Below are positions 4,966 through 35,551 of a stretch of 49,841 bases of DNA, in pieces. The notes beneath the pieces were generated by a model that worked only from the letters and a program-made list of their open reading frames with translations, searched no databases and had not been told where the DNA came from. Numbering within the stretch: the stretch's first letter is position 1; every line of letters begins with the position of its first letter. Both the position numbers and the translations under genes were made by a program. This stretch comes from Parafrankia discariae (lineage in GTDB: Bacteria > Actinomycetota > Actinomycetes > Frankiales > Frankiaceae), in assembly GCF_000373365.1 (NCBI RefSeq), contig NZ_KB891170.1, forward strand, positions 77,463 through 127,303, given 5' to 3'.

Positions 4966-4979
4966 CGGCGCCGAGCCAA

Positions 4980-5013: not shown

Positions 5014-5025
5014 CCCGCCTGCCGG

Positions 5026-10634: not shown

Positions 10635-12589
<1,955 letters not shown>

Positions 12590-12595
12590 CCCGAC

Positions 12596-12645
12596 GGCCG
12601 CGGGCCTCCCCCGACCAAACCCACGGCCGGGTGAGCCCCGCGGCC
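12596..12645. terminator. Stem-loop between convergent thiC and methyltransferase genes
   Basis: Nine-base inverted repeat GGCCGCGGG (12596-12604) / CCCGCGGCC (12637-12645) separated by 32 bases, lying in the 79-bp gap between two convergent stop codons. It probably terminates transcription from both sides; the long loop makes this moderate evidence only. Confidence 0.5.
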
Positions 12646-12668
12646 CGCACGCCAACCGACTACCGGCC

Positions 12669-14519: not shown

Positions 14520-14666
14520 ACCCCAGCCGGTCGAACGCCCCGCGCCCCGGCCGTGGGCCCGGCACCGGCACCGGCACCGGGCACCGCTCCGGCGGCGGGC
14601 CCGACCCCGGCGGCAGCCCCGGCCCCGACAGCGGGCCCGCGGGCTGGTGATCCGCCGGGGCCGGGC

Positions 14667-15857
14667 CTACGGCAGCAGCTTCTCAATGTGGTCTGCGGCG
14701 GCCACGACACCGCCCGCCGCGCTGAACTCGTCCCGCAGCCGCCGCGCCGCGACCCGGTGGGACGGCTCGTCGAGCACGGTGCCGATCGCGGTGGCCAGCG
14801 TCGCCGGGGTCGAGCGCCCGAAGCGCACCCGCAGACCCGCCCCGGCCCGCACCACCTGCTCGCCGATGATCGGCTGGTCGTCCCGCACCGGCGCCACCAC
14901 CAGCGGCACTCCCCGTGACAGAGCCTCACAGACCGTGTTGTTTCCCGCGTGGCACACTATCGCGTCCAGTTCGTCCATCAGGTCCACCTGCGGCACGAAC
15001 GAGCGGACCAGCAGGTCGTCGGGAACCTGGCCGGCGAGGTCGTCCAGCGGGCCCGGCGGCGCGACGATCACGGCCTGCACCCGGTCGGACATCCCCACCA
15101 GGGCCTCCGCGGCCGCGCGCAGGAACCGCCCGCCGGCCTCCCGGGTCACCGTCCCGAGTGAGACGAGGACGGTGCGGCGGTCCCGGTCGAGCCATTCCCA
15201 GGGGAACTCCGGGGCCGACCGGCGCAGCCCGGCCGCGCAGCCGACGAACACGTGATGGGACGGATGGCTGGCGGTGCGCAGCAGCGAGGGCACCGAGCAG
15301 ACCACGGTGAGGTCCTCGGAGAAGCGCAGGTCACCGCGCGCCGCCTCCTCCGCCGGGACGCCGTTCGCGACCTGGAAGTCCCGCAGCCGCTCCGACACCC
15401 AGTTCCCGACCCCGGCGAGCACCGCGTAGGGGTCGTCGAGCTCCGCCGAGGTGGTGGCGAGCGTGGCCCACCGGATGCCGCGCCGGCGGGCGATCATGGC
15501 GGCCCCGACCGCCTGCTGGTCGGCGACGATCACGTCCGGGCGCCACCGTTCGACGACGGCACCGACGTCGCGCGCCATCGAGGCGCCCAGCGGCAGCAGG
15601 AACTCCTCCCACAGGAACTTCAGCGACGCGGGCCCGCGCAGCGGCCGGGACCGTTCCTCCAGCTCGGCCCGCTGGTCGGCCGAGATCTCCCCCGGCAGCG
15701 CGATGAGTGGGATGGACGGCGGGACGAGCGGGCCGACGACGCTCGCGTGGCCGACCAGGGCCACCTCCTGCCCGCGGGCCGCCAGCTCGCCGGCGATGCC
15801 GACCGCCGGGTTCACGTGCCCGGTCAGCGGCGGCACGGCGAAGAGAACACGGCCCAT
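14667..15857 (-). CDS. Family-1 (MGT/UGT-type) glycosyltransferase
   Basis: Encodes 396 residues from ATG 15857 with a GGGGG tract eight bases upstream. GT1 glycosyltransferases transfer a sugar from a nucleotide sugar to a small acceptor. The N-terminal acceptor-binding Rossmann fold begins RVLFAVPPLTGHVNPAVGIA, and the C-terminal donor-binding signature is HAGNNTVCEALSRGVPLVVA followed by PVRDDQPIIGEQVVRAGAG, giving the expected D-Q donor contact. It is closest in appearance to macrolide/sterol/lipid glycosyltransferases. Located directly downstream of the PKS, ACP and hydrolase genes on the same strand, it probably glycosylates the PKS product, analogous to the glycosyltransferase of heterocyst glycolipid synthesis. 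The sugar is not predictable. Confidence 0.93.
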   Translation of the reverse strand: MGRVLFAVPPLTGHVNPAVGIAGELAARGQEVALVGHASVVGPLVPPSIPLIALPGEISADQRAELEERSRPLRGPASLKFLWEEFLLPLGASMARDVGAVVERWRPDVIVADQQAVGAAMIARRRGIRWATLATTSAELDDPYAVLAGVGNWVSERLRDFQVANGVPAEEAARGDLRFSEDLTVVCSVPSLLRTASHPSHHVFVGCAAGLRRSAPEFPWEWLDRDRRTVLVSLGTVTREAGGRFLRAAAEALVGMSDRVQAVIVAPPGPLDDLAGQVPDDLLVRSFVPQVDLMDELDAIVCHAGNNTVCEALSRGVPLVVAPVRDDQPIIGEQVVRAGAGLRVRFGRSTPATLATAIGTVLDEPSHRVAARRLRDEFSAAGGVVAAADHIEKLLP

Positions 15858-15933
15858 CAAAGCCCCCGAAATCCCATTCGTCTCCCTTCCGGCGGTGAGT
15901 CAGCCGCGCCTTCGCGACCCGCACCGGTGACGG

Positions 15934-16869
15934 TCAGGCCTCGGCCGGCGAACCGGCCCGCGCCGCGGACAGCGACGTCGTGGGCTCGTCCCCGTTGTTG
16001 AGGTTCGGCGGCGGGATCATCTGCCGCACCCAGTCGGGGGTGTCGAACCCGGCACCGCGCACCTGGTGCGAGGGCATCGGCTCGGACCGCCGGAACAGCC
16101 ACCACCGCAGCAGGTCACGCAGGTAGTCGGCCGCCTCCCGCAGCACCATGTGGGTGTGCTGCTCCAGGACGACCAGGGTGCAGTCCGGGACCAGCTCGGC
16201 GAGCCCCTCGGCCTGGTCGATGATGTCCGAGTTCGCCCCGTAGACGGCGAGCACCGGCATCGGCAGGCTGGCCAGCGCCTCCGGCGAGAACGGCGGGGTG
16301 GCCAGCATGTCCTCGGCGATCGTGGTCTCCTTCAGCAGCGCCTGCGAGGCGCGGGTGATCCGGGAGACCGCGCGGCCGGCGGAGTTCGCCAGCCACTCCT
16401 CCACCTCCTCGTCGGTGACGGCCGCGAGAACCTGGGTCAGCGAGCGGGCCATCTCCTCGCCGAGCCCCTCGATCAGGAACGGCGGCTCGATCAGGGTCAG
16501 GCTCGCCACCCGCTCCGGGCGGGCCAGGCCGAGCGCGAGGGTCAGCGTCGCGCCGTAGCTGTTGCCCACGACGTGCACGGGCCGGCGCACGTCGAGGGCG
16601 TCGAGCAGGCCTTCGAGGTCGGCCATCGAGTCGACCATCGTGTAACCGGTCGGGGTCCGCTCGCTGCGGCCATGGCCGCGCAGGTCGTAGCAGATGACGT
16701 CGCATCCCGCTCCGGCCAGGCAGTTGCCCAGCGCGAAGTAGAAGCTGGAGATGTTGTCCATCACCATTCCGTGCACCATCACCACGACCGGCGACTCGGG
16801 ACCGGCCCCGCCCTTGGGCCCAAGCCTCTGCACATGCAGACGGACGCCGTTGGCGACGATCTCAGCCAC
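15934..16869 (-). CDS. Alpha/beta-fold hydrolase (possible chain-release enzyme)
   Basis: Encodes 311 residues. The start is a GTG at 16869 preceded by AGGGAGAG. The fold is clear: VMVHGMVMDNISSFYFALG forms the oxyanion region, CYDLRGHGRSERTPTGYTM follows, the nucleophile Ser is in VGNSYGATLTLA (about residue 105), and a late His is in LEQHTHMVLREAA. It lacks a signal peptide and so acts in the cytosol. Placed between the stand-alone ACP gene and the glycosyltransferase gene, it may act as a thioesterase or lipase-like enzyme that releases or transfers the PKS product; no separate thioesterase domain is present in the PKS proteins. The C-terminal 40 residues are disordered. Confidence 0.9.
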   Translation of the reverse strand: MAEIVANGVRLHVQRLGPKGGAGPESPVVVMVHGMVMDNISSFYFALGNCLAGAGCDVICYDLRGHGRSERTPTGYTMVDSMADLEGLLDALDVRRPVHVVGNSYGATLTLALGLARPERVASLTLIEPPFLIEGLGEEMARSLTQVLAAVTDEEVEEWLANSAGRAVSRITRASQALLKETTIAEDMLATPPFSPEALASLPMPVLAVYGANSDIIDQAEGLAELVPDCTLVVLEQHTHMVLREAADYLRDLLRWWLFRRSEPMPSHQVRGAGFDTPDWVRQMIPPPNLNNGDEPTTSLSAARAGSPAEA

Positions 16870-16971: not shown

Positions 16972-17310
16972 CTAACGGGCGGCGGCCGGCGTGTCGGTCT
17001 CGAGGCTGTCGACGATGAACTGGACGACCTCCCCGACCTTCATGTTGATCACCTGGTCGACATCCATCTCCGAGAGGAAGCCGACGAAGTCGACGTGGTC
17101 CCCGTAGGTCTCCCGGAGCCGGTCGGCGAAGGTCACGAACTCGATGCTCTCGAGTTCGAGGTCCGCGTTGAACGAGGTGTCCATGCCGATCGTCATGTCG
17201 ACGACGTACTCCTCGCCGATCACGTCGCGCAGGATCTCCGTCACGTCCCCGAGCACCTGGTCCGCGCGGGTCGCCGGGTCCACGGCCAGGGTCGACTGGT
17301 TGGTGGTCAT
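16972..17310 (-). CDS. Stand-alone acyl carrier protein
   Basis: Encodes 112 residues. The phosphopantetheine attachment Ser lies in DLELESIEFVTFADRL, with the typical four-helix ACP pattern and strongly acidic composition. The Ser is followed by IEF rather than the IKR seen in the two ACP domains of PKS1, so the three carriers are not interchangeable copies. ATG 17310 overlaps the stop codon of PKS2 (ATGA), which indicates translational coupling and a shared transcript. It may carry the starter unit or deliver the finished chain to the downstream hydrolase or glycosyltransferase; both are inferences. Confidence 0.92.
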   Translation of the reverse strand: MTTNQSTLAVDPATRADQVLGDVTEILRDVIGEEYVVDMTIGMDTSFNADLELESIEFVTFADRLRETYGDHVDFVGFLSEMDVDQVINMKVGEVVQFIVDSLETDTPAAAR

Positions 17311-20300
17311 CGCTGGGTCTGCTCCTTCTGCTGATCGGGCTGCGTACCGGTCCGTGCGCCCGGCCGGTGACCGGCCGGGCCGGTGGGTTGATCGCCGGGC
17401 CGCCGCGTGGGCGGGCTCCCGGCGGCGCCGCCCGGAGGCCTCGCGGATCGCTCGATCCGTGGCGAGGTCCAGGCCACGATGTAACCGCCCGCGGGAGCGC
17501 CGCCGGATGTGGCGGCGCCGGACGCGGCGGTGTGATCATTGAGTTCGGTGTCGGGACGGGGCCGTCCGGTGGTGTCCATGGTGCGCAGTGCCACCCACCA
17601 CGTCTCGCCGGCCCCGGCGCCCGCTTCCGCCCCGGTAGTGTGCCCGGCCGCGGCCGGCTCCGCCGCCGGACCGCCGTCCGGTTCCGCCGGTGGCCCGCCG
17701 TCCGGCGCGGAGACGGTGACCGGTACCAGCATCGGGGCCGGCAGGCCGGTCACGTCGGGAGGCTCGCCGGTCGGGTGCGCGACCATCCCGCCCGGCCCAC
17801 GCGGCACCGCCGCCGGGACGGCGGATCCGCCCGGTCGCGGCCGGCCGACGACGAACCGCCGCTGATCGCCGGCCGGCCCGGTCCCGTACGCCTTCGCCGC
17901 GGCCTGCTTCGCCGCGGCGAACCGCGCGAGCCAGAGCACGCGGGCCCGCGGATCCGCGCCGGCCAGTTCGTCGAGCAGGCTCAGCTCGGATCCGGCGAGC
18001 ACGGCCGCCTCCGCGGCGGGCCCGCGCCGTTCGTCGCGTTCCTCGATGCGCTCCAGGCCGATTCCCACACCGCCGACGTCTCCCGGGTCGTCCACCGCGA
18101 GGGCGACGGCGATCTCCGGGCGGTGGGCGATGCCCACCTCGGGGCGGGTCAGCTCGGGCAGACCCGGCCGGGTGGGCACCGTGCCGACGACCAGCCGCCC
18201 GGACACCAGATCCGTCACACCGACCTCGATCGGCCACACCGCGCCGGCCCCGCGTTCCCACCAGCGGCGCCGCACCGCGTCCTTGGCCGCGATCCGCCCC
18301 AGCAGCCAGGACCGGGCGGCCAGCGGATTGTGCCGGGCCAGCCGGGTCCGCTCGTCCGCGTCGAGGTAGTGGCGCAGCGACAGCTCCCGGGACGCCGGGT
18401 CACGCCAGTGCTCGGTGACGACCACCCAGCCGTCCGGCGTCAGGTGGCTCTGTGTGTTCCCCTCCGGCGCCAGTGCCATCGACCACAGGACGTCGTCCTC
18501 GGTGAACCGCCGGTCGGTCCAGCCCTGGATGTGCCCCCACAGCCGTCCGTCGGCGTCCCGGATCTCCATGTCCGCGGTGGCGGTGCGGTCGGTCACGTCC
18601 CGGATCCGGCCCAGGTAGGACATCCGCACGCCGACCGGCGGTGGCGGGCCGAAGAACCGAATCGAGGTGACCGAGGCCGGGAAGAGCAGCCAGTCCGTCG
18701 GCAGGTACTGCATGCCCCAGTACCCGAAGAACTGCCCGGCGTTGTCGAGCAGCGCGCCGCTGGCGGGTGTCACCCGCAGCCAGCCGCGCAGCCCCAGCGG
18801 GGCCATCCCGTCGACGGACTCGACGCCCTGGTAGCCCGGCCCGTGGAACAGCAGCCGGTCGTCGTAGATTGCGCGCCCGGTGTGCGGGGACGGCGCCTCG
18901 CCGGGGATCACGACCTCCCCCGCCGCGCCCGGCGCCGGGACGAACCCGGTGGCCGTGTCGGTCACCCGCGGCGGCGCCGGGTAGGCGTCGGCGAAGACGA
19001 CCGTGGCCCGCGTGTAGCCGACGACGTCGACCCGGATCTCGTCCGGGCCCAGCGGGGTGCTGGTGATCGTGACCTGCACCGGCGGCTCGATCGCCAGCCA
19101 GCGGGTGGCCCGCACGTCCCGGACGGCCACCACCGCGCGCCCGGGCATCAGCGCACTCGCCTCGGCGATGATCATTTCGAGCACGCCGGTGAGCGGCACG
19201 ACCGGGAACAGGTCGGACGGGTCGGACCACCCGGGGGGCTGCCGGTAGAAGCAGTGGTCGGCGACCTCGGGCATCGTCGCCAGGGAGAGCTCCCGCCGCA
19301 CGGTCCGCCCACCACCCGGCCCGCTCGCCGCGGGCCGGGCCGCGGGCACCCCCGCAGGCGCGGGCACCGCCTGCGCCGTTGCTGCCTGCGTCGTTGCCGC
19401 CTGCGCCGTTGCGGTCCGGGCCTGCGTCTGCGCCGTCGCGGAAGGAGCGGACGCCCGCGCCGCGGCCCAGCGGTCGGTGACGGTGGACATCACCGCTCGC
19501 GCGTCGGCGACCGCCGCGCCGAGTTCGGCGAGGACGGCATGGCGCGCGGGGCCGCCCGGACCGTCGGCCACCTGGGCCGGCACGTCGCCGTCGCCGCGAC
19601 GTCCCGCGTCCGCGCCGCCGAGCCGGGGCGGGAGCGATGCCGCGAGGTCCGGGGCGTCCGCGCCGAGCCGGACCAGCGGCGTTCCCAGTCGCAGGCGCAC
19701 CGGGCGCCCGGGCCGGGCCGCCGGTGCGGCCACCCGCGGCGCCCTGGTCGCGCCGGCAGCGGCGGTGCCGACGGCCGTGGCGGTGCCGGCGGCAACGGCG
19801 GTGCCGGCGGCAACGGCGGTGCCGGCGGCAGTGGCGGGCTCCGGTCTGGTGTGGCACGGCAGGACGTCCAGGCGCGGCGCGGCACCGTCGGCCCACAGCG
19901 CCACCGCGACCCGCCGGAGCTGGTCGAGGCCGGACCGCTTGGTGGTGTTCGTGACCAGCGACGCGTGCTCATCCCCCGGACCGTTCAGGGTGTCGTCGAC
20001 GAAGCCGGCGACGCTGCCCATCCCGACCTGCACGAACACCCGGACGCCCGCGGAGTGCAGACGCCGCGTCAGCTCCCGGAACCGCACCGGCTCGAGCAGG
20101 TGCCGGACGGCCAGCTCCCGGATCTCGTCGTGCCCCGCCGGATACGGAGCCACCGTGGTGGCGGACCACACGGGGACGCGTGCCGTGTACAGGGGCGTGT
20201 TGTAGAGACCGTCCCGCAGGCGCTTGAGGTGCGGCTTCAGGAACGGGGAGTGGAAGCCCGAACGGAACGGCAGCGTCTGCCCCAGCACCCCGCGGGCGCG

Positions 20301-22661
20301 CAGCCGGGCGAGCGCGGTCTCGACGCTGTCCACCCGCCCGCAGATGATCGACTGGTGTGGGCAGTTGTCGTGCGAGACCACGATCTCGGGCAACCCGTCG
20401 ATCGCCTCGGTGGCGACCTCCGCACCGCAGCCCAGCGCCCCGAACACGACACCCGGCACCTCGAGCGTGGCCGGGTCGAAGACCCCGATGAACTCGTCGG
20501 CGTACTCGTCGGTCATCAGCCCGGCCGAGAGCATCGCGTTCCACTCGCCCACGCTGTGCCCGGCGACCAGGTCGGGGACCACCCCGAGGCGGCGCAGGGC
20601 CGTGTCGAGGACCCGTCCCACCTGGACACTGGCGACGCCGTGGCTGCCGAGCTCGGCGGTGTCGCCCACCTCCGGGCGCGCCAGCCCGAAGTGGTCGCAC
20701 ACGTCGTCGATCCGTGGGGCGAACTTGTCCTCCAGACCGCAGAACAGGAACGCCAGCCGCGGGCCGACCTCGGCCCCGGCGCCGACGTCGGGGCCGAGGT
20801 CGGCACCGGGCCCGGCCCGGTCTCCGAGCAGCGGATCGGGGACGAACCAGAGATCGTTGCGCCCGCGCCACGCGGTGCCGCGGGCCGCCACCGTGCGGGC
20901 CAGCGCCAGCCGGCGCGGGGTGGGAGCCACCAGCGCCAGCCGGTACGGCCCGCCCACCGGCGGGGACGCCGCGTCGTCCCGCCCGAGCAGGTCGGCGTCC
21001 GGGACGGCCAGCTGGGCGACGATCTCGGCCGCCGACGAGCCCGCGAACAGCAGGACCCGCTCGGCCGCCGGGTCGGGCCCGAGCTCGGCACCCGTCCCGG
21101 CGGCGACGATGCCGGCGACGGAACCGGTGGAACCGGCGGAGCCACCGAAGCTCACCGGATCGACGGCGCCGGCGTGGTCGTCGAGGCACTCCTCCAGGAC
21201 GACGTGCGCGTTCACGCCGCCGAACCCGAAGGCGTTCACCCCCGCCCGGCGCGGCGTGGCGCCGGACGGCTCCCACTCGGCCGCCGCCCGGACCGGGGCG
21301 AACCGGCTCCCGTCGAACAGCGGGTGCGGCTCGTCGCAGTGCAGCGTCGGCGGCAGGGTGCGGTGGTGCAGCGCCAGCGCGGCCTTGATCAGTCCGGCCA
21401 TGCCGGCGGCGGGCATCGCGTGCCCGATCATCGACTTCACCGAGCCGAGACCGACCGGGCCCGCCCCGGCCTCGCTCGCCCCTACGCCGCCGCCGAAGAC
21501 CTTCGCCAGCGTCGAGAGCTCGGTGCCGTCGCCAGCCGGAGTCGCGGTCCCGTGCGCCTCGATCAGCCCGACCGCGCCGGGCGCCGCCGGGTCGAGACCG
21601 GCGTCCGCCCAGGCCCGCTCGATCGCCAGGATCTGCCCAGAGGACGCGGGCGCCATCAGGCTCGCGGTACGCCCGTCGCTGGACGTCCCGGCGCCGCGCA
21701 GCACGGCGTAGACCCGGTCGCCGTCGCGGCGGGCGTCGGGGAGCCGCTTCAGGACGATCATCCCGACGCCCTCGCCCATGAGCAGGCCGTCGGCGCGGCG
21801 GTCGAACGGCCGGATCCGCTGGGTGGGCGAGAGCGCCCGCAGCAGCGTGAACAGGCTCCAGAACGAGACCTCGTGCACGATGTGCACGCCGCCGACGATC
21901 ATCGCGCCGGCCCGGCCCCCGACCAGCTCCCGCATCGCGATGTCCACCGCGACCAGGGAGGACGCGCAGGCCGCGTCGATCGTGTAGGCCGGGCCGTGCA
22001 GGTCGAGACGGTTCGCGATCCGCGAGGCCGCCAGGTTCGGCACCAGGCCGATGGACGCCTCCGGCCGCTGCGGGCCCAGCTTGGCCAGAAACGCGTCGAC
22101 CACCTGGTCGACGGCCCCCTCCGGGACGTCCGGCAGCACCTCGCGCAGCGTGGTCGCCAGCTGGTGCGAGGTGCGGACCCGCTGCTCGAGCCGGGCCACC
22201 CCCGGCCCGACGTAGCCGCCGCGGCCCACCACGACGCCGACGCGGCCGCGGTCACCGAGCGCCTCGGCCCCGCCGGCGTCGTCCATCGCCTCGGCGGCGA
22301 GCCGCAGCGCGAGCAGCTGGTCGGGCTCCGCCCAGTCGACCGAGACCGGGACGATGCCGAACCGGGCGGGGTCGAAGGTCGCCAGATCGTCGACGAACCC
22401 GCCGCGCCGGCAGTAGAAGCCGGCGCCGTCCGGCCGCCGGTCACCGTCCGCGACCGCCCCGGCGGCCCCGGCGTAGTACTCGTCGAGGTCCCAGCGGCCC
22501 GGCGGGACGTCGGCGATCGCGTCCACGCCACCGACGATGTTGCGCCAGTAGGTGTCCAGGTCGCCCGCACCGGGGAACAGCGCGGACATCCCGACGATCG
22601 CGATCTCAAGCCCACCCGCGTCGCGGGGGCCGCCACCGTTGTGGCGGGATGTGTCACCCAT
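17307..22661 (-). CDS. Type I polyketide/lipid synthase PKS2: KS-AT-DH-degenerate PPTase
   Basis: Encodes 1784 residues from ATG 22661, which overlaps the end of PKS1 by eight bases. Domain order: ketosynthase (about 16-450; Cys232 in DAACASS, His in EAHGTATP and KSMIGHAMPAAG); acyltransferase (about 650-960; Ser703 in GHSVGEW, His in GFHSPF, but FCGLEDKF replaces FPGQGSQ and the malonyl-binding Arg is not seen); an Ala/Thr-rich linker; a double-hotdog dehydratase (about 1110-1420; His1136 in ADHCFYRQ, Asp/Gln in LLDNAGQFF); and an AcpS-like phosphopantetheinyl transferase region (about 1500-1610) with GIGLE instead of GIDLE (Gly1535) and AKQAAAKAYG instead of KEAAAKAFG (Gln1586). The last 170 residues are Pro/Gly/Ala-rich. 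It probably supplies condensation and dehydration to the PKS1 system, as in PUFA or heterocyst-glycolipid synthases. Confidence 0.93.
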   Translation of the reverse strand: MGDTSRHNGGGPRDAGGLEIAIVGMSALFPGAGDLDTYWRNIVGGVDAIADVPPGRWDLDEYYAGAAGAVADGDRRPDGAGFYCRRGGFVDDLATFDPARFGIVPVSVDWAEPDQLLALRLAAEAMDDAGGAEALGDRGRVGVVVGRGGYVGPGVARLEQRVRTSHQLATTLREVLPDVPEGAVDQVVDAFLAKLGPQRPEASIGLVPNLAASRIANRLDLHGPAYTIDAACASSLVAVDIAMRELVGGRAGAMIVGGVHIVHEVSFWSLFTLLRALSPTQRIRPFDRRADGLLMGEGVGMIVLKRLPDARRDGDRVYAVLRGAGTSSDGRTASLMAPASSGQILAIERAWADAGLDPAAPGAVGLIEAHGTATPAGDGTELSTLAKVFGGGVGASEAGAGPVGLGSVKSMIGHAMPAAGMAGLIKAALALHHRTLPPTLHCDEPHPLFDGSRFAPVRAAAEWEPSGATPRRAGVNAFGFGGVNAHVVLEECLDDHAGAVDPVSFGGSAGSTGSVAGIVAAGTGAELGPDPAAERVLLFAGSSAAEIVAQLAVPDADLLGRDDAASPPVGGPYRLALVAPTPRRLALARTVAARGTAWRGRNDLWFVPDPLLGDRAGPGADLGPDVGAGAEVGPRLAFLFCGLEDKFAPRIDDVCDHFGLARPEVGDTAELGSHGVASVQVGRVLDTALRRLGVVPDLVAGHSVGEWNAMLSAGLMTDEYADEFIGVFDPATLEVPGVVFGALGCGAEVATEAIDGLPEIVVSHDNCPHQSIICGRVDSVETALARLRARGVLGQTLPFRSGFHSPFLKPHLKRLRDGLYNTPLYTARVPVWSATTVAPYPAGHDEIRELAVRHLLEPVRFRELTRRLHSAGVRVFVQVGMGSVAGFVDDTLNGPGDEHASLVTNTTKRSGLDQLRRVAVALWADGAAPRLDVLPCHTRPEPATAAGTAVAAGTAVAAGTATAVGTAAAGATRAPRVAAPAARPGRPVRLRLGTPLVRLGADAPDLAASLPPRLGGADAGRRGDGDVPAQVADGPGGPARHAVLAELGAAVADARAVMSTVTDRWAAARASAPSATAQTQARTATAQAATTQAATAQAVPAPAGVPAARPAASGPGGGRTVRRELSLATMPEVADHCFYRQPPGWSDPSDLFPVVPLTGVLEMIIAEASALMPGRAVVAVRDVRATRWLAIEPPVQVTITSTPLGPDEIRVDVVGYTRATVVFADAYPAPPRVTDTATGFVPAPGAAGEVVIPGEAPSPHTGRAIYDDRLLFHGPGYQGVESVDGMAPLGLRGWLRVTPASGALLDNAGQFFGYWGMQYLPTDWLLFPASVTSIRFFGPPPPVGVRMSYLGRIRDVTDRTATADMEIRDADGRLWGHIQGWTDRRFTEDDVLWSMALAPEGNTQSHLTPDGWVVVTEHWRDPASRELSLRHYLDADERTRLARHNPLAARSWLLGRIAAKDAVRRRWWERGAGAVWPIEVGVTDLVSGRLVVGTVPTRPGLPELTRPEVGIAHRPEIAVALAVDDPGDVGGVGIGLERIEERDERRGPAAEAAVLAGSELSLLDELAGADPRARVLWLARFAAAKQAAAKAYGTGPAGDQRRFVVGRPRPGGSAVPAAVPRGPGGMVAHPTGEPPDVTGLPAPMLVPVTVSAPDGGPPAEPDGGPAAEPAAAGHTTGAEAGAGAGETWWVALRTMDTTGRPRPDTELNDHTAASGAATSGGAPAGGYIVAWTSPRIERSARPPGGAAGSPPTRRPGDQPTGPAGHRPGARTGTQPDQQKEQTQR

Positions 22662-25600
22662 CGAACGACCCGACTCCCGCGCACATGTAGACGACCTGGG
22701 TCGGCGCGGCCGCGACCGGCTCACCGAGCTCCCGCAGCAACGCGGCGACCCCTTCCCCGGGGTCGATCAGACCGATGCCCCGGCGGGCGTACTCCCGGGA
22801 CAGCTCGGCGGACACCATCCCGCGGCCGGCGACCGTGTCGGTGCCCCAGGGACCCCAGTCGACGCTGACCACCCGGCCGGCGAAACGCGCCGAGGCGGTG
22901 TGCGCGAGGGCGTCCAGGGCGTCGTTGGCGGCCGCGTAGTCGACCTGACCGCGGTTGCCGAACACCCCGGCCACGCTGCCGAAGAGCACAACGAAGCCCA
23001 CATCGGGCCGTAGCGCGTCCAGCAGGGCGCGCGCCCCGTCGACCTTCGTGCGGAACACCCGATCGAAGGACTCCGGCGACTTGTCCCGCAGCAGCCGGTC
23101 CTCCAGGACGCCGGCGCCGTGCACGACGCCGTCCAGCCGGCCGTGCCGCGCGTACACGTCGGCGACGACGCCGGCGACCGCGGTGACGTCCCGCACGTCG
23201 ACCGGGTGGTAGCGCACCGACGCGGCGACCTCCCGCAGCGCGCCGAGCGTGGCCCGGATCTCCCGCTCGGCCAGGATCCGCCCGATGCGGGCCTCTATCT
23301 CGGCCGGGCGGCGCACCCCCGCCGCGATCAGGGCACGGCGCAGCGCGGGCGGGTCGAACGCGCCCACGGTGGCCTCGTCCTCGGGCGCGTCCGGGACGGG
23401 CGTGCGTCCGATCAGCTCGACCGCGCAGCCGGTGGCACCCGCGAGCGCCAGCGCGGTCCGGGCGGTGATCCCACGCGCGCCACCGGTCAGCAGGACGACG
23501 CCGGACCCGTCCAGCCCCGGCGGAACCGCGGCGGCCCGCGGCGCCCCGGCGGCCGGAGCATCCGGCCCGCCGGTGACCGCGGCCAGGTCGACCATCCGCA
23601 GCTCGGGAGCGATCCGGACGCCGTCGCGGTAGCCGACGACCACCGGCGCGTCCGGCGTGAGCATCTCCGCGAGCAGGTTCTCCGCGATCCGCCGCGGCTG
23701 CGCCTTGGGATGGACGTCCACCAGCCTGATCAGGAGGTCGGGCAGCTCACGGGCCAGGGTCCGGAGCAGCCCGGCCATCCCGGCGCCCGGGCCGGGGTCG
23801 CCGATCTCGCCGTTGCGGCCGAGATCGCCGCCGAGGCCGGTGACCGCGACGAGCCGCCGGACGCCGGCCAGCGCGGCGGCGCGCAGCGCCGGGAACGCCG
23901 CCGGCAGACCGCCGGTCGGCCCCGCCGAGCCCTCCGTCGAGGCGGCCCAGAACAACCCGTCGGCGCCGATGCCGGAGGCGACCAGCTCGCCCAGGGCGGC
24001 GTCGTTCGCCGAGATGATGCGGACCTGCGCCCCGGCCTGTTCAAGCAGGCTCGACAGCGCGAGGCCGATCCCGAGCCCGCCGTCGACGACGGCGAACCGG
24101 GCGCCGTCCAGCACCGCCGTGCGGCCGGCGGCGACGATGTCGTCCCAGGACGGCAGCGGGGCCAGCTCGGTGGACTCCACCACGAACCGGCGCAGCGGCA
24201 CCCGTTCGGCGAACACCGGATCCGTGGCGCCCCGCGGGGCCGACAGCACCCCCCAGCCATCCGGCGCCGACGCGGTACCGGCTGACCGGACGCCGGCCGG
24301 CGGGGCACCAATTGGTGCCGCGAGCCGCGCGGACATCACCGGCGCACCCGCCGGTACCGGAACGGCCGTGGCCGCGGCCGCGGGAGTCGCCTTCGCCGCG
24401 GCGGTCGCCGGGACCGCGGCCGGGACGGCGGACCAACGCTCGGCGTGGCTCTGCTCGGGCACCTCGACCTGTCCGGGCCGGGCCCGTCCCGCGCCGGCGG
24501 CGGCGCCGGGCCCCGCGCCGTGGCCGGCCCCGCCCCCGGCGGTGACCGCCTGGTCGGCGGACCGGTCGACAGCCGGGTCGGCGGACCGGTCGGCGGCCGG
24601 GTCGGCGGACTGGCGCTCGACGATCCAGGAAACGATCCCCCGAACCGTCTTCACCGCCGCCAACTCCTCCACCACCGACTCATCCACATCACCCGCCCCC
24701 ACACCAGCCAGACCCACCCGCCCCGCGAGCTCCCCCAGAATCTCCGTCCGCTTGATCGAATCGATCGACAGATCAGCCTCAAGATCCAGATCCGGCTCCA
24801 GCATCTCCACCGGATAACCCGTCAGATCCGCGATCACCCCCACCACCGCATCCGCCACAGCCTCCGCCGACAACCCGACAGACCCCCCACCACCCACCGG
24901 CACACCCACCACAGCCGGCGCCGGAGACGAGGTGGCCGAGGACGCGGTGGCCGGGAGGGCGGCCGGCGCCGTGTCGTAGGCCGGGTCGGCGGACCGGTCG
25001 GCGGCCGGGTCGGCGGACTGGCGCTCGACGATCCAGGAAACGATCCCCCGAACCGTCTTCACCGCCGCCAACTCCTCCACCACCGACTCATCCACATCAC
25101 CCGCCCCCACACCAGCCAGACCCACCCGCCCCGCGAGCTCCCCCAGAATCTCCGTCCGCTTGATCGAATCGATCGACAGATCAGCCTCAAGATCCAGATC
25201 CGGCTCCAGCATCTCCACCGGATAACCCGTCAGATCCGCGATCACCCCCACCACCGCATCCGCCACAGCCTCCGCCGACAACCCGACAGACCCCCCACCA
25301 CCCACCGGCACACCCACCACAGCCGGCACGGCCAGAGCCGGAGACGCGGCGGCGGCAGGCGCGGCCACCGCGGATACCGCGGGTGCGGCATGCACCGCGG
25401 GCGTGGCGGATGCCGCGGGCGTGGCGGGCACCGCGGGCGTGGCGGGCACCGCGGGCGCGACAGGCGTGGCGGGCGGCAGGACGGCAGCCGGAGCCACCGG
25501 GGCCGGCAGCGGGGCTGCCTGAGCCCACCGCCCGGCATCGTGGTCGACCGGCGTGGCCGCGGCGGCGCCGCCCAGGTAGGTCAACAGAACGTCGCGCTGC

Positions 25601-28600
25601 GCCGCCACGAGATCACGGCCCGTCCGCAGGAACTCGAGGACGGCCGTGTCAGCGGGCCCGGTGACCGGGGCCGGCCCGGCCGGCCGGCCGGCGACCGCCG
25701 GCTCGACGGGGCTCGCACCGGCGGCGGCGAACGCGGCCCCGGACCCGTTCGGCCCCGGATACCAGCCGTCGCGATGTCCGTTCACATGCCCGTTCGCGTG
25801 CCCGTTCATCATCTGGGGACCGTCCACTGGAGTGCCTCCTGCCGATCCGCCGGCCCCCACCGGGCCGGGCGCGAAAACGCGCCAGGCCCCGGGGCCGTCC
25901 TGCCTGTCTGTGTCACCAGAGCCACCCGTCCGCGCCGTGGACGCCTCGACAGCCATCGGCCGCCCTGGCTCCGCGGCCCACTCAGCCGGCGCGGCCTCGA
26001 CAGCCGGCACGACCGGCACGACCGGCGGCACCCGTCGGGCGGGCCGCAGCCCACCGGGCAGGTAGCCGCCCTGCCCGGTCCGCACATACGCCCCGTCGAT
26101 CAGCCAGCCCGGGCGCCGGGGCATCCCGTCGGCCGGGACCGTGCGGGTGTCACGGCCCGCGAACAGGGCCGACGGGTCCAGCTCCACCCCGGCCGCCGCG
26201 AGCTCGGCCACCGCGAGCAGCAGCCGGCGCAGGCCGTGCTCCCCCGGCGCGTCGGTCGCCACGACCCGGTGCGGACGTCCGGCGAGAATCTTCGCCGTGA
26301 GCTGGGAGAGCACCCGGCCCGGACCGGTCTCGACGAAGACCCGGACGCCGGCCGCGTACATCGCCTCGATCTGCTCGACGAAGCGGACCGGGGCCGCGAC
26401 CTGGCCGGCCAGCGTCGCGCGGGTGCCGTCCGGGGTCCGCGGGTAGGGCGCGGCGGTCGTGTTGGACCACACCGGCAGCGTGAGCTCACCGACGGCCGTG
26501 GCGGCGAGCTCACCGGCCAGCGTGTCGGCCGCACCGGCGATCACCGGGCTGTGGAAGGCGCAGGCCACCGGGATGCGCCGGGCCGAGTGCCCGGCGTCCT
26601 TGAGCCGGGCGACCGCGGCGTCGACGGCGGCGGTGGGCCCGGAGATCACGGTCTGGCGTGGCGCGTTCTGGTTGGCGAGCGCCACGCCGGCCACGGTGCC
26701 GTCGGCCGCGGGCGCGCCGAGCGCGTCCCGGATCTGGTCGGCGGTCGCCGACACCGCGGCCATGGTGCCCGGGTCGCCGTCGGCCGCCGCGAGGATCGCG
26801 TCGGCGCGGGCCCGGCTGAGCCGGACGAGGTCGGCCCGGTCGTACGCGCCGGCCGCGCACAGCGCGACCAGCTCACCGTAGGAATGACCGGCGACATGGT
26901 CGGGACGGATCTTCAGCCCGGCCAGGATGTCGTGGACGGCCAGCCCGGCCATCCCCAGCGCGGGCTGCGCCGCCCGGGTGTCGGTCAGCGCCGCGGCCTG
27001 GGCCGTCCGTTCGGTGTCGCTGAAGGCGGCCGGGGGGAACATCGTGGCGGCGACGTCCGGGGCGAGCTCCAGCAGGGCGCGCAGCCGCGGGAAGGCCACG
27101 AAGAGGTCCGCGAGCATCCCGGGACGCTGGCTGCCCTGGCCGGGGAAGAGGAACGCCACCGGTCCGGCGCCGCCGCCCTCGGTGGACGTCCCGGTGCCGC
27201 CGCCGGCCGTGGCCGACGCGTCGGACGTGCCGGCCTCGTCCCCGGGGTGGACGAACACGCCGAGGCGGGAGTCCGACCGCGGCTCGCGCGCCCGGTCGAG
27301 GGCGGCGGCGAGATCGTCCAGCTCGTCGACGACGAAGGCGATCCGCACCGGGCCGCCCCGCTCCTCGGCCGCGGTGCGGGCCAGATCGCGCAGGTGGTAG
27401 GGCCGGCCCGCCTCCTCGTTGGCCCGGGCCAGTTCGGCGAGGCGGTCCAGCCGGCGCAGCGCGGCGGCGCGGTCCCGACCGCGGATCACGAACAGCTCCG
27501 CCGGCCACCGGTCCAGGCCGTGCGCGGGCTCCGGTGCCTTGTCGTAGGCCGACACGACGACGTGGAAGTTCGTCCCGCCGAACCCGAAGGCGGACAGGCC
27601 GGCGTGGCGCCGCCCGGCGGGCGCGATCCACGGGCGGGCCCGGTCGTCGAAGAAGAACGGGCTGCTCTCCTGCTCCCAGTACGGGTTGGGGCGGTCCATG
27701 TGCAGCGTCGGCGGCCGCACGCCGGTCTCCAGCGCGCGCGCCACCTTGACCAGCCCGGCCAGGCCCGCGGCGCACTTCGTGTGGCCGATCTGCGACTTCA
27801 CCGACCCGACCGCGCACTGGCCGACGGCGGCGCCGTGCTCGGTGAACACCTCGGTGAGGGTGGCGAGCTCGGTGCGGTCCCCGACGACCGTTCCGGTCGC
27901 GTGCGCCTCCAGCATGCCCACCTCGGACGGCGAGATCCCCGCCGTCGCGTAGGCCCGCTCGAGGGCGATGACCTGCCCGGCCTTGCGCGGCGCGGTCAGA
28001 CCGAGTGCCCGGCCGTCGGAGGAGCCGGCGACCGACCGGATGACCGCGCGGATCCGGTCACCGTCGCGCTGCGCGTCCGCGAGTCGCTTGAGAACGACGA
28101 CGGCGACGCCCTCACCGAGGCTGGTGCCGTCCGCTCCGGAATCGAAGCTGCGGCACCGACCCCCCGGAGACAGCGCGTGCACCGAGGCGAAAAGCAGGAA
28201 GTCGTGGACGCTGGAATGGGTGTCCACGCCCCCGCAGAGCACCATGTCGGACGAGCCCGCCGTCAGTTCCTTGCAGGCCGCGTCCAGGGCGGCCAGCGAG
28301 GAGGCACACGCCGCGTCGACGGTGAAGTTCAGGCCACCGAGATCGAGCCGGTTCGCCACCCGGCCGGCTATGACGTTCGCGAGCATGCCGGGGAAGGAAT
28401 CCTCGTCGAGCTCGGGCAGGAGCTCCTCCAGCTCGGCGGGAAGCTCACCGACCCAGGCCCGGTGCGCGGAGCGGAATCCATAGGTCGTGGAAAGGTCGGA
28501 ACCTGACTCCGCGCCGAAGACGACCGAGGCGCGCCGCCGGTCGAACGGTCGGCTTTCATACCCGGCGTCGCGAATGGCCCGGGCGGCCACCTCCAGCGCG

Positions 28601-31260
28601 AGGAGCTGACCCGGATCAATGCTGCGCAGCGAGCGCGGTGGTATTCCGTAGGCGAGCGCGTCGAACGGAATCCGCGGCAGGAATCCACCCCATTTGGACG
28701 GGGTTCGCCGGCCGGCGTCCTTCACGACCGATTCCGGGTCGTAGTAGAGCTCCGCGTCCCACCGTTCGGGTGACACCTCGGTTATCGCGTCGACACCGCC
28801 GACCACATTGGCCCAGTAGTCCTTCTCGTCGGAAGCCCGCGGAAACACCGCTGACATACCGACGATCGCGATGTCGAGCGACCGGGCCGCCTCGCGCACG
28901 GCGGCCACGGACCGGGCCGCGCGCCCGGCCCGGTCGCCGTCCGATGGCTGGCGGCCGACGGTCCCCTCGGCGCGGTCGGCCGCGGCTCCGTCGATCGCGG
29001 CGGCGCGCTCGGCGCCGCTCCCGGCGATGCGCTGGGCCGGCAGCACGGCGACCGACCCGGTCGGCTCGTCGACCCACCCGGCCGCCCGCTCGGCGACGAG
29101 CGCCGTGGCCTGCTCGGTCACCTCCGCGTGCAACCGGCCGATCGTCGTGCGGTCCGATCTCAGCGCCGCCACCTGGCCGATCATGAACATGCCGTCGGTG
29201 GCCTGCTCGCGGGGCCCGACCTCGACCAGCTGGCCACCCTCCCGGCGGACACCCCGGCTGGCGATCCGCAGCCGGCCCAGGTTGAGCGACTCGAGCTCGG
29301 CCCACATCTGCTTGCGCGCCACGCCGGCGGCCGTCAGCTCCTCGCGCCGGCGCAGGAAGGTGTGCACGAACTCGGACTCCACGCACCGGGTGGCGTGCCC
29401 GGGCGAGGTCTCCAGCAGCACGGTGCGGGTGGCGCCGATCGCCGCCTCCTGGAACCCGGGCATGATCGCGCCGTCGGCGACCGCCTCCTCGGTGAACAGG
29501 TAGGCCGTCCCCATGAGCACACCGACCCGCGCGCCGCGGTCGGCCAGCGGGGCCGCCGCCGCCGCGACCATGGCCGCCGAGCTCGCGTCATGGATCCCGC
29601 CCGCGAAGAGCACGTGGACGTCCTCCAGCGACCCCGGACCGTCACCGGCGGCCAGGGCGAAGGCGAGCAGGCGGGTGATCTGCGCCTCCCACAGCGAGAA
29701 GCTGGCCCGCGGCCCCACATGGCCGCCGCACTCGCGGCCCTCGAAGACGAACTTGCGCGCCCCGTCGGCGAGGAAGCGATCGAGCAGCCCCGGTGAGGGC
29801 ACATGCAGGAAGGTGTCGATGCCGGCGGCCTCCAGCGGTGCCGACTGGGCCGGTCGTCCGCCGGCGATCAGCGCGCAGGGCGGGCGTACCTCGTGCACCG
29901 CCTCGAGCTGGGCCGCGCGCACCTCGGGCGGCGCGAACCCGAGAATTCCCACGCCCCAGGGCAGGTCACCGAGCAGCTCGGCGGTCTCCGTCAGCAGCGC
30001 CCGGGTCGCCGCCCCGTCCAGCAGCGCGAGCGCGAGGAAGGGCAACCCGCCCGCGTCGGCCACCGAGCGGGCGAACCGCGCCCGGTCGCTGACCCTGGTC
30101 ATCGGTCCCTGCGCGACCGGGTAGCGCAGCCCGCGGGCGGCCGCGAACGGCGATCCCGGCGCGAGCGGCCGGTGCCGCGCCGCCGAGTCGAGAGCGGTCC
30201 GCACGGACTCCCGCACAGCCTGGACCAGGGCACTCGCCGACCCGTACCGGTCGGCCAGGTGGGCCGCCAGCGCGCCGTCCTGCCCGACGGGGAGAAGCTG
30301 CGTCCGCAGGTCGCGTCCGCCCAGCCGCAGCGCGACCGGGCGCTGGTCGCCACCGGCGGCGGATGCGGTGGCGCCCGGCACCATGGCCGCCGGCGCGGCG
30401 GGCCCGGTGGAGGTCAGCGCGGTGGACGTCAGCGCGCCGTCGGAGGCGAGTTCACCGCCGGTGTCCCGGAAGTCCGTGACCGGCTCGTCTCCGTTCCTGG
30501 GCGCACCCGGGCCGGCGGGCCAGCCGACCAGGCGGGCGACCGGTAGATCCGGGCGCACGTAGACGCGGTGGCCCTCGATCAGCGCGGTCTCGCTGCCGTC
30601 CATGGCGCGGACCGCGGCCGCCGTCTCGGTGGGCAGCTCCATCTCACGCACGAGCGCGAACTGCGAGTCCATGAGCACACCGACCGCTCCGCCGGCGATC
30701 GCCGCGGCGGCCGTGGCCGGACCAATGCCACCAGCAGCCCACACGGGGGCAACAGACCCGTCCCGACGTGTCGGCTTCGCGGCGATCAGGTGCTGTAGCA
30801 GAGTGAACGTCGTGAGGTCACCGACTCGTCCGCCGGCCTCATTACCGCGCGCGACGAGGCCGGCCGCGCCCGCCTCCAGCGCGCCCACCGCGTCAGCCAC
30901 GGACAGCACCTCGACGAGGACGCGCCGACCAGACCCGGCGGCCTCGGCCACCGCCCACGGGGCGTCCACCGCGAGCAGTACCGTGTCGACGCAGGCAGGC
31001 AGGTCACCGGTTTCGAGCGGGCAGCCCACGGGGACCCTGACCCCGAACGGCGCGGTCGACCAGGCGACCGCCGCGGCCAGCGACTCCCGGCCGCGGGCCG
31101 GGTCGAGGCCGAGATCGAGGATTCCCAGGCCGCCTGCGTGGCCGACCGCCGCCACCAGGTGCGGCGCGGGCTCACCGAACGGGCTGACGACGACGACCAG
31201 GTCCCGGTCTCCGGGCTCGACCGCGACGGGCCTCGGTCGGGCACTGAACGAGCTGCTCAT
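22654..31260 (-). CDS. Type I polyketide/lipid synthase PKS1: NPD-NPD-KS-AT-ACP-ACP-KR
   Basis: Encodes 2868 residues from ATG 31260, preceded by AGGAGG at ideal spacing. Domain order: an N-terminal nitronate-monooxygenase/PfaD-like flavin domain (about 25-260, GNEAGGRVG); a second one (about 370-720, GRECGGHVG); ketosynthase (about 793-1237; Cys985 in DAACASS, EAHATGT, KSQIGHTKCAAG); acyltransferase (about 1385-1700; FPGQGSQ, Ser1460 in GHSYGE, Arg in SRARAD, His in AFHSPV, so malonyl-type); two near-identical ACPs (Ser2032 and Ser2168, each in SIDSIKRTEIL, the form typical of PUFA-type synthases); and a ketoreductase (about 2370-2860; LTGGARGI, LFGSVAG, VDYAAAND). Together with the PKS2 dehydratase this gives full reduction capability in an iterative system. 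First gene of the locus; about 2 kb without genes lies upstream. Confidence 0.95.
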   Translation of the reverse strand: MSSSFSARPRPVAVEPGDRDLVVVVSPFGEPAPHLVAAVGHAGGLGILDLGLDPARGRESLAAAVAWSTAPFGVRVPVGCPLETGDLPACVDTVLLAVDAPWAVAEAAGSGRRVLVEVLSVADAVGALEAGAAGLVARGNEAGGRVGDLTTFTLLQHLIAAKPTRRDGSVAPVWAAGGIGPATAAAAIAGGAVGVLMDSQFALVREMELPTETAAAVRAMDGSETALIEGHRVYVRPDLPVARLVGWPAGPGAPRNGDEPVTDFRDTGGELASDGALTSTALTSTGPAAPAAMVPGATASAAGGDQRPVALRLGGRDLRTQLLPVGQDGALAAHLADRYGSASALVQAVRESVRTALDSAARHRPLAPGSPFAAARGLRYPVAQGPMTRVSDRARFARSVADAGGLPFLALALLDGAATRALLTETAELLGDLPWGVGILGFAPPEVRAAQLEAVHEVRPPCALIAGGRPAQSAPLEAAGIDTFLHVPSPGLLDRFLADGARKFVFEGRECGGHVGPRASFSLWEAQITRLLAFALAAGDGPGSLEDVHVLFAGGIHDASSAAMVAAAAAPLADRGARVGVLMGTAYLFTEEAVADGAIMPGFQEAAIGATRTVLLETSPGHATRCVESEFVHTFLRRREELTAAGVARKQMWAELESLNLGRLRIASRGVRREGGQLVEVGPREQATDGMFMIGQVAALRSDRTTIGRLHAEVTEQATALVAERAAGWVDEPTGSVAVLPAQRIAGSGAERAAAIDGAAADRAEGTVGRQPSDGDRAGRAARSVAAVREAARSLDIAIVGMSAVFPRASDEKDYWANVVGGVDAITEVSPERWDAELYYDPESVVKDAGRRTPSKWGGFLPRIPFDALAYGIPPRSLRSIDPGQLLALEVAARAIRDAGYESRPFDRRRASVVFGAESGSDLSTTYGFRSAHRAWVGELPAELEELLPELDEDSFPGMLANVIAGRVANRLDLGGLNFTVDAACASSLAALDAACKELTAGSSDMVLCGGVDTHSSVHDFLLFASVHALSPGGRCRSFDSGADGTSLGEGVAVVVLKRLADAQRDGDRIRAVIRSVAGSSDGRALGLTAPRKAGQVIALERAYATAGISPSEVGMLEAHATGTVVGDRTELATLTEVFTEHGAAVGQCAVGSVKSQIGHTKCAAGLAGLVKVARALETGVRPPTLHMDRPNPYWEQESSPFFFDDRARPWIAPAGRRHAGLSAFGFGGTNFHVVVSAYDKAPEPAHGLDRWPAELFVIRGRDRAAALRRLDRLAELARANEEAGRPYHLRDLARTAAEERGGPVRIAFVVDELDDLAAALDRAREPRSDSRLGVFVHPGDEAGTSDASATAGGGTGTSTEGGGAGPVAFLFPGQGSQRPGMLADLFVAFPRLRALLELAPDVAATMFPPAAFSDTERTAQAAALTDTRAAQPALGMAGLAVHDILAGLKIRPDHVAGHSYGELVALCAAGAYDRADLVRLSRARADAILAAADGDPGTMAAVSATADQIRDALGAPAADGTVAGVALANQNAPRQTVISGPTAAVDAAVARLKDAGHSARRIPVACAFHSPVIAGAADTLAGELAATAVGELTLPVWSNTTAAPYPRTPDGTRATLAGQVAAPVRFVEQIEAMYAAGVRVFVETGPGRVLSQLTAKILAGRPHRVVATDAPGEHGLRRLLLAVAELAAAGVELDPSALFAGRDTRTVPADGMPRRPGWLIDGAYVRTGQGGYLPGGLRPARRVPPVVPVVPAVEAAPAEWAAEPGRPMAVEASTARTGGSGDTDRQDGPGAWRVFAPGPVGAGGSAGGTPVDGPQMMNGHANGHVNGHRDGWYPGPNGSGAAFAAAGASPVEPAVAGRPAGPAPVTGPADTAVLEFLRTGRDLVAAQRDVLLTYLGGAAAATPVDHDAGRWAQAAPLPAPVAPAAVLPPATPVAPAVPATPAVPATPAASATPAVHAAPAVSAVAAPAAAASPALAVPAVVGVPVGGGGSVGLSAEAVADAVVGVIADLTGYPVEMLEPDLDLEADLSIDSIKRTEILGELAGRVGLAGVGAGDVDESVVEELAAVKTVRGIVSWIVERQSADPAADRSADPAYDTAPAALPATASSATSSPAPAVVGVPVGGGGSVGLSAEAVADAVVGVIADLTGYPVEMLEPDLDLEADLSIDSIKRTEILGELAGRVGLAGVGAGDVDESVVEELAAVKTVRGIVSWIVERQSADPAADRSADPAVDRSADQAVTAGGGAGHGAGPGAAAGAGRARPGQVEVPEQSHAERWSAVPAAVPATAAAKATPAAAATAVPVPAGAPVMSARLAAPIGAPPAGVRSAGTASAPDGWGVLSAPRGATDPVFAERVPLRRFVVESTELAPLPSWDDIVAAGRTAVLDGARFAVVDGGLGIGLALSSLLEQAGAQVRIISANDAALGELVASGIGADGLFWAASTEGSAGPTGGLPAAFPALRAAALAGVRRLVAVTGLGGDLGRNGEIGDPGPGAGMAGLLRTLARELPDLLIRLVDVHPKAQPRRIAENLLAEMLTPDAPVVVGYRDGVRIAPELRMVDLAAVTGGPDAPAAGAPRAAAVPPGLDGSGVVLLTGGARGITARTALALAGATGCAVELIGRTPVPDAPEDEATVGAFDPPALRRALIAAGVRRPAEIEARIGRILAEREIRATLGALREVAASVRYHPVDVRDVTAVAGVVADVYARHGRLDGVVHGAGVLEDRLLRDKSPESFDRVFRTKVDGARALLDALRPDVGFVVLFGSVAGVFGNRGQVDYAAANDALDALAHTASARFAGRVVSVDWGPWGTDTVAGRGMVSAELSREYARRGIGLIDPGEGVAALLRELGEPVAAAPTQVVYMCAGVGSFDG
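24572..24919 (-). repeat. 348-bp perfect direct repeat, copy B (second ACP domain of PKS1)
   Basis: Identical base for base to 24980-25327 (offset 408 bp, equal to 136 codons). It encodes the whole second ACP with its SIDSIKR motif. The coding strand here uses many GAT, GGT, GCT, CTT, TTG and GTG codons, in contrast to the GAC/GGC/GCC/CTC bias on both sides. Confidence 0.97.
24980..25327 (-). repeat. 348-bp perfect direct repeat, copy A (first ACP domain of PKS1)
   Basis: Identical to 24572-24919 with no silent differences. The copies are separated by 60 bp of linker that has the normal codon bias of the gene. Identity at third positions implies recent duplication or ongoing gene conversion. 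Confidence 0.97.
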
Positions 31261-32445
31261 CGGATGCTCCTCCTGGCCAGGCACCACCGTGATCGGCGAC
31301 GACCGGGAACGGTTGCCGCCGGCACCGGCCGGCGGGCCGGGGTCGGATTCGGGCGGGCTCGGCCGGCGGGCGCCGGTGAACCACTGGGGAGATCGCTGAC
31401 CGGCCGCCGCTGATCTGCGCGCCTCGAGGTAGTCCGGTCCCGGCGTCGTGGGGCGATCGGCACATCAGGCAGGTGCAACTCCATATGAGGGACAGAACCG
31501 GCGACCGGCTCGGACTCCCCGCCGCAGGCGACGATGACGATTTGGTTGTGGTGACTGCGGCCCGGCCCGATCGACTCACCCGAGGCAGCGGACGTGCGCG
31601 AAATACTAGCCCGTCCGGACGAGGTCTCCACAAGCAGGTCACGTCGCGAAACGATCAGGTACCCCGGCTCATCACCCGGACACACGGCCGAACACACGGA
31701 ACGCGGCGCGCGACGGCGCGCCGGGATCTTCTGGCCCGCCCTGCCGGGCGTGTTGTCCGGCTCTGCGGACAGCGCGCGTTTCGCCGTACATCCGATGTTC
31801 GCCGCGACGATGCCGTACACATGCCTGCAATGACTACGATTCGACGGCTGGCCCGAATTTATTCCGGCACGGTCCCAGAGTGACACGTCATACCGTCCGG
31901 GTGCGGAGCGTCGGTGATCGAAACCATCGGGAATCAGTGTCAACTTTCCCTGACCGGGCACCGCGGCCTCGACGGTGGACCACGCCCGAATCCCATGACA
32001 TGACATTCATCCAGCCGTTCCTCCGGTGACGATCTGGAGCAGCCGCCGATCCCGGCCTGAGCCGGACGGACACGGCGTCGACAGACTCGTCTCTTCTGAC
32101 CCCCACATACGCAGTGACATGACCCGTTCAACCTAGTCACCCTTGGCGAGCAGCCGCAAGCATAAGCGCTGCCCATTTCCCTCGCCCATCTTGGAGTCGC
32201 CCCCTCGGGCACGACAAATACCCAGTTCACAGGGGCTTTTCCCACGCGATCAGGGCACCGCGCGGATGCCATCCGGGCTCCGGCGAGCCACACGGGACCA
32301 CGGGGAGCATTCCGCGAAGAGGCCGGGCAGGCGGCGAGACCACCCGAAGTAACTAGAGCCAGGTCACTGCCAGGAAGCCCATCCGCCAGAGTGCGTGAAC
32401 GACTCTCCCGAGTCCTGCGTGGATGTCCGACCAGGACCCAGAAGA

Positions 32446-35496: not shown

Positions 35497-35502
35497 CGGC
35501 AT

Positions 35503-35551
35503 GTGCCGATCCCAACAGGTGCCGATGACCACAGGTGGCCGATCACAGCAG
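35503..35551. repeat. Three imperfect 16-17 bp repeats over the LAL stop codon
   Basis: GTGCCGATCCCAACAG (35503-35518), GTGCCGATGACCACAG (35519-35534) and GTGGCCGATCACAGCAG (35535-35551) lie head to tail. The third includes the stop codon of the LAL regulator (35543-35545). Confidence 0.75.

Follow-up and report, generated by a model that had tools for sequence, protein, structure and literature searches.

The window, the whole 49,841-nucleotide stretch of DNA that was analyzed, carries two adjacent, identical ACP-encoding repeats. They are best explained as a GRINS-like repeat of short length, housed in the gene for an iterative lipid synthase that resembles PUFA synthases, in a Parafrankia-like actinobacterium. 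The likeness of the copies, the inheritance of their codon skew, the link between skew strength and copy identity, and the association of skew sign with the replication strand were all computed. Recombination among the ACP copies, whether by gene conversion, unequal exchange, or template switching, would keep the copies alike and alter their number. The same exchange, perhaps occurring at replication forks, would carry a strand-asymmetric bias from C (and A) to G (and T) on the leading strand, mostly at silent sites, and this bias could be either mutational or in the choice of the strand that is kept. Leading-strand ACPs would then drift to G/T-ending codons and lagging-strand ACPs to C/A-ending codons, and a lone ACP would retain the skew for some time after copy loss. 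The exchange, the involvement of the fork, and the strand-asymmetric bias are steps that we infer, and the probability of the explanation as a whole is roughly 0.62.

The synthase and its repeats are arranged as follows, in positions of the window.

22654..31287, minus strand: synthase gene, 2877 aa from GTG (ORF, Pfam, and NCBIfam); domain order FabK-like, KS, AT, ACP, ACP, KR
24980..25327, minus strand: first ACP copy in the reading direction, 348-bp repeat (exact match to 24572-24919)
24572..24919, minus strand: second ACP copy, 348-bp repeat (exact match to 24980-25327)
24920..24979, minus strand: 60-bp linker with normal codon bias (GC3 0.95)
25036..25341, minus strand: G/T-ending patch over the first ACP, approximate (codon listing, 40-codon profile, and 150-nt windows)
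24628..24921, minus strand: G/T-ending patch over the second ACP, approximate (same evidence)
17307..22724, minus strand: downstream partner synthase with KS, AT, and weak DH (profile matches)

The synthase matches Pfam families PF00109, PF02801, PF00698, PF08659, and PF00550, the last in two stretches, and has a single KS, AT, and KR along with the two ACPs. Its FabK-like domain corresponds to TIGR03151 (NCBIfam), with a score under the curated cut-off. The best NCBIfam match of the synthase is PfaA (TIGR02813), though the score of 903.2 bits is below the curated cut-off of 1010.1. The KS-AT-ACPn-KR order, the tandem ACPs, and this best match liken the synthase to PfaA. Unlike PUFA synthases, it has the FabK-like domain fused at its N-terminus and ACPs that are exactly identical in DNA. 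Shulse and Allen 2011 (PMC3098273) describe a Pfa-like cluster, Type M, that is conserved in Frankia, and the synthase probably belongs to this type. In PUFA synthases, output rises with more ACPs (PMC5067506). At the level of the enzyme, the duplication probably provides two equivalent carriers and no more. Downstream of the synthase (12672-16869) are a methyltransferase, an EryCIII-like glycosyltransferase, and an alpha/beta hydrolase, and upstream (33337-39301) are two LuxR-type regulators; from these neighbours, a glycosylated lipid product is possible. A long plus-strand ORF opposite the synthase (24445-28506) is taken for an ordinary high-GC antisense ORF.

The sequence-only reading had described a perfect repeat whose copies each encode a full ACP, separated by a linker of ordinary codon usage, and all of this holds. 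The copies agree at 348/348 bases, and the exact repeat is maximal, with no extension possible on either side. Each encodes the DLSIDSIK motif, and the Pfam PP-binding domain is found in two stretches. The linker is 60 bp and has the usual codon bias. A search for the repeat elsewhere in the genome, which that reading had proposed, found the two copies and four short fragments (33-52 bp, 79-88% identity) and no further full copy among the 40/353 first-look candidates that were scored. Because the genome is assembled as a 194-contig draft, two ACP copies are a minimum.

The codon preferences described for the repeat were borne out, with GCT in 4/17 Ala codons; the counts for TTG and CTT (two and one of the ten Leu codons) are too few to weigh alone. 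GAT:GAC is 8:3 in the repeat versus 18:137 elsewhere in the gene, and GTG:GTC is 15:2 versus 101:133. GGT and GGG together occur 15 times in the repeat, where GGC is absent, and the remaining gene has 50 GGT, 85 GGG, and 148 GGC. The anomaly is an avoidance of C at third positions, with G or T taken instead. Third positions of the ACP core are A 0.00, C 0.07, G 0.68, and T 0.25, compared to a prediction from the codon usage of the remaining gene of A 0.04, C 0.47, G 0.44, and T 0.06; the actual C value in the remaining gene is 0.48. GC skew and TA skew are 0.50 and 0.28 in the ACP core and 0.02 and 0.10 in the remaining gene. Codon bias is back to normal over the final ~22 codons of each repeat; the anomaly therefore spans the ACP core and not the whole repeat. 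GC3 alone is not distinctive, as a second 116-codon stretch of the gene has 0.776 versus 0.784 in the repeat. G3-C3 is distinctive: the patch has 0.58, and no other stretch of 81 codons in the gene exceeds 0.27.

C3-poor patches are found in 8/64 coding-like ORFs of the window and eleven loci of the same genome. One of these is the synthase, and the contigs of the other seven ORFs have carrier-domain hits; no such patch was found in the other ORFs of the window or in locus L162, nor was a skew patch found in the downstream partner synthase. The loci were mostly picked for PKS genes; the background is provided by L162 and the greater part of the window. On contig C135 of the same genome (G000), the minus-strand ORF 1-14514 (L156) has a skewed stretch of ~500 codons, whose motifs resemble those of an NRPS adenylation domain.

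GRINS, elements of lopsided base composition known from antibiotic-making genes and defined in PMC10394414 and PMC9899208, are at least 500 bp and typically ~1 kb long and are located in assembly-line (modular) PKSs. The skew limit is given as GC and TA skew >25% (PMC10394414) or, alternatively, as a mean absolute value >0.15 (PMC9899208). With GRINS so defined, the ACP pair shares coding DNA repeated inside a single synthase gene at high identity, with GC skew and TA skew both above 25% and possible signs of gene conversion. Identity is 100% over 348 bp to another region of the synthase, skew in the ACP core is 0.50 (GC) and 0.28 (TA), and eight 150-nt windows per copy pass both the identity and the skew limits. 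Each copy is 348 bp, however, and the runs of passing windows are ~360 bp; the ACP-linker-ACP unit is 756 bp, but its linker is unskewed. The host is a PfaA-like, iterative lipid synthase rather than an assembly line, the copies are adjacent and of one domain, and both skew signs occur and track the replication strand, all of which differ from GRINS as those papers define them. The pair lies within the identity and skew limits and outside the length and location given, and we therefore class it as a short GRINS-like variant and not a member.

The copies resemble each other within genomes more than between them. When the 30 ACPs of 17 orthologues are placed in a tree, the copies cluster by genome in 9/11 tandem genomes, and the ACPs of the close relatives G010 and G028 interleave. 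Silent codons agree at a mean of 0.98 in the 15 within-genome pairs and 0.72 in the 420 between-genome pairs. If codons were drawn at random from the skewed pool, an identity of 0.92 would be expected in the window gene, compared to the actual 1.00. The grouping by genome points to gene conversion or repeat turnover, in keeping with the recent duplication or gene conversion proposed from the sequence; conversion and repeated duplication and loss fit it alike. Copy number, suggested to vary among strains, ranges from 1 to 3 ACPs in orthologues and is 4 in a related gene, and draft assemblies may collapse copies. The draft contigs of several relatives end or begin beside ACPs, as near-identical repeats would cause, and copy numbers in drafts are therefore minima.

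The strength of the skew follows the identity of the copies. This was measured as d, the excess G3-C3, in 143 distinct ACP genes (63 tandem); one selection of relatives took the top-ranked 80 of 543. Identical ACP sets, window ORFs <2000 aa, genes with <250 non-ACP codons, and loci L164, L165, and L168 (from the same genomes as G005, G002, and G029) were omitted. The excess absolute G3-C3 correlates with copy identity, with a Spearman value of 0.89 over all tandems and of 0.78 when the set is narrowed to the 41 with GC3 >0.8. Among GC-rich tandem genes, an absolute d of at least 0.25 is reached in 27/28 with a copy identity of at least 0.90, in 4/8 with an identity of 0.80-0.90, and in 0/5 below 0.80. 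One leading-strand tandem (L250, identity 0.84) has no skew. Counter to a strict link, 22/78 single GC-rich ACP genes are skewed as well (15 from the Frankia family and 7 from outside it); copies may have been lost or collapsed in those of the Frankia family. Type M singles lie below tandems (median 0.36, n=12, versus 0.55, n=11; p 0.005, from lists drawn up by hand), and within genera the gap is small. The skewed singles and the near-equal skew of singles and tandems within genera would fit a separation of the two processes, in which recent duplication or conversion makes the copies alike, and the skew either survives as an old, neutral relic or comes from a local mutation bias that has no tie to exchange. 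This we consider unlikely, as the skew climbs gradually with copy identity over the 41 genes and recurs in several lineages with both signs.

The sign of the skew associates with the replication strand, with leading-strand genes rich in G/T and lagging-strand genes rich in C/A, and with exceptions at weaker thresholds. The origin was placed at dnaA and the terminus at its antipode on circular chromosomes, and Streptomyces-like chromosomes were assumed to be linear; origins and termini are thus inferred positions. Sign was compared with strand in 30 ACP genes, all on dnaA-carrying contigs (0.76 Mb in G121 and 1.26 Mb in G205), with L064, on the second contig of G014, omitted. The skew thresholds were set after part of the data had been seen, and all that were tried are given here. 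At an absolute d of at least 0.15, 11 leading-strand genes are positive and 1 is negative, and 0 lagging-strand genes are positive and 6 are negative (Fisher 3.8e-4). The corresponding counts are 10 and 1 (leading) and 0 and 5 (lagging) at 0.25, and 10 and 0 and 0 and 3 at 0.35. Tandem ACP genes by themselves give 8 and 0 and 0 and 5 at 0.15. Modular-PKS loci were taken among the matches listed, with lagging-strand clusters deliberately included, and same-strand loci within 150 kb were merged to give 39 clusters >1500 codons (L319 had no ORF passing the filter). Of clusters with at least 5% skewed windows, the leading strand has 10 positive and 0 negative and the lagging strand 0 positive and 5 negative (3.3e-4). 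These become 12 and 1 and 1 and 6 at 3%, and 13 and 2 and 1 and 6 at 2%. The genes are of limited phylogenetic independence; counted by hand as one per orthologue family and genus, 8 ACP groups (4 and 4) are all consistent (p 0.029, or 0.048 with L082).

The exceptions in sign are the single ACP L082 (leading, -0.26), the single ACP L245 (-0.146, just under the limit), a positive lagging PKS cluster of G202 (2.13-2.17 Mb), two weakly negative leading clusters of G088 (9.13 and 1.05 Mb), and L304, which is leading and negative and is hidden in a merged positive cluster of G139. L303 and L304 (G139:C1:158-204 kb) are neighbouring PKS genes of opposite orientation, and the lagging one is strongly C/A-ending, in 54% of windows; the negative leading L304 beside it is perhaps a recent inversion. 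In G009, GC skew switches near 4.0-4.3 Mb versus an antipode at 3.75 Mb. Terminus samples of G029 and G010 are roughly consistent but noisy, and those of G029 at 0.90 and 2.30 Mb are contrary. The minus-strand genes of one terminus sample (L335, G029:C1:2000000-2019999) have G3-C3 of +0.24 with a GC skew of -0.146, and this locus probably holds another skewed megasynthase. The dnaA gene of the window's own genome is on a different contig (C129). On the window's contig, G3-C3 of minus- versus plus-strand genes is -0.04 versus -0.12 in the window and -0.08 versus -0.16 in L162; minus-strand genes are slightly more G-ending, which is weakly in line with the synthase gene lying on the leading strand. 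Chromosomal replication-strand bias likewise enriches G and T on the leading strand. The ACP skew differs in being local, with a patch G3-C3 of ~0.6 versus strand differences mostly <0.1 (20-kb samples of three relatives).

Of the silent third-site differences between copies in positive genes, 23/28 are C/G or C/T. Cytosine deamination alone is disfavoured, with 14 C/G differences exceeding 9 C/T (equal-length pairs compared). We would take an even bet that GRINS are the trace of a recombination bias that is coupled to replication and asymmetric between the strands, and by which mutually converting repeats turn G/T-rich on the leading strand. If so, the sign of the skew records the orientation of a repeat to the fork, its strength records both how long and how often the repeat has been converted, and lipid synthases, through their tandem ACPs, offer the simplest natural test system. 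In the ACP pair, a GRINS-type element takes the form of a small repeat whose copies are adjacent and equivalent in function. The skew varies in strength with copy identity and in sign with the replication strand, so the mechanism is testable. The original GRINS report is said to have left the mechanism open. A literature search that did not reach the original paper itself found no paper combining 'GRINS' with 'leading strand', and the novelty of the strand rule is thus unconfirmed.

A second tandem-ACP gene of this genome, L153 (G000:C47), shows the pattern of the synthase in mirror image, with third positions of C 0.75 and A 0.10 and a GC skew of -0.30. Its relatives in the window's genus (L259, L260, L262, and L261) are also negative, at -0.40 to -0.52. 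Those in G009 and G029 (g5, Frankia) and G018 (g2) are positive (L244, L248, and L263; 0.58 to 0.62). These opposite-sign orthologues are 59-60% identical over the full proteins and 71-81% identical in their ACPs. L153 uses GAC 17 times and GAT 0 times, and GAA 10 times and GAG 0 times; L244 uses GAT 15 and GAC 9 times, and GAG 21 and GAA 0 times. Translational selection, by which slow or special codons assist ACP folding or modification, would account for a patch that coincides with the ACP core and is kept across the family. It is very improbable, as orthologous ACPs of different genera use opposite codons (L153 versus L244) and many single ACPs are unskewed.

The skew was inherited with the gene, and the ACP DNA travelled with it. 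The N-terminal domain of the synthase is matched in 57/146 related genomes, and G/T-ending ACPs are also found in family orthologues that carry one, two, or three ACPs. Single-ACP orthologues with the same bias are present in G017 (one contig, C3 0.19) and G005 (draft, C3 0.15), and the skew is weaker in genus g2 (G021, G018, and G006). Compared with its G003 orthologue, the window gene has a silent-codon identity of 0.89 over the ACPs and of 0.85-0.90 over the other domains. ACP silent identity exceeds that of the flanks in 5/6 species comparisons, including G002 (0.75 versus 0.65-0.69), G010 (0.79 versus 0.62-0.63), and G001 (0.84 versus 0.61-0.68). A smaller set of third bases would give this higher identity. 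The sequence-only reading had suggested a cassette acquired from another source and had named beforehand the same codon pattern in single ACPs, as found in G017 and G005, as refuting it. A cassette with foreign codon usage, gained horizontally and then duplicated, would suit a composition sharply unlike the remaining gene, and exchange between species could also yield the higher ACP identity in 5/6 comparisons. We reject it as barely credible: single-ACP orthologues throughout the family have the skew, divergence at ACP silent sites is about equal to that of the flanking domains or somewhat smaller (equally so from G003, with the fewer third-base states explaining the remaining comparisons), no other source copy turned up among the scored candidates in the genome, and plasmid matches are partial (22-29% of the ACP query in each of four records, at 74-80% identity). 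A codon patch that looks foreign in a megasynthase gene need not signal gene transfer.

An assembly error behind the perfect duplication, conceivable in a draft genome with a repeat longer than a short read and with the contigs of several relatives ending or beginning next to ACPs, has a very small chance, as the copies differ in their flanks, the linker is distinct, and near-identical pairs are carried by the single-contig genomes G029 (100%) and G013 (99.6%) and by G009 (98.5%).

Other repeats are found in the window. At its very start (1-88) are about ten head-to-tail copies of the 8-mer GCCGTCAG. The plus-strand ORF 42501-44810, for which no Pfam match was found, contains in-register 15-bp and 18-bp repeats (43395-43514 and 44470-44595). 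Two adjacent 40-bp direct repeats at 45420-45499 are 78% alike.
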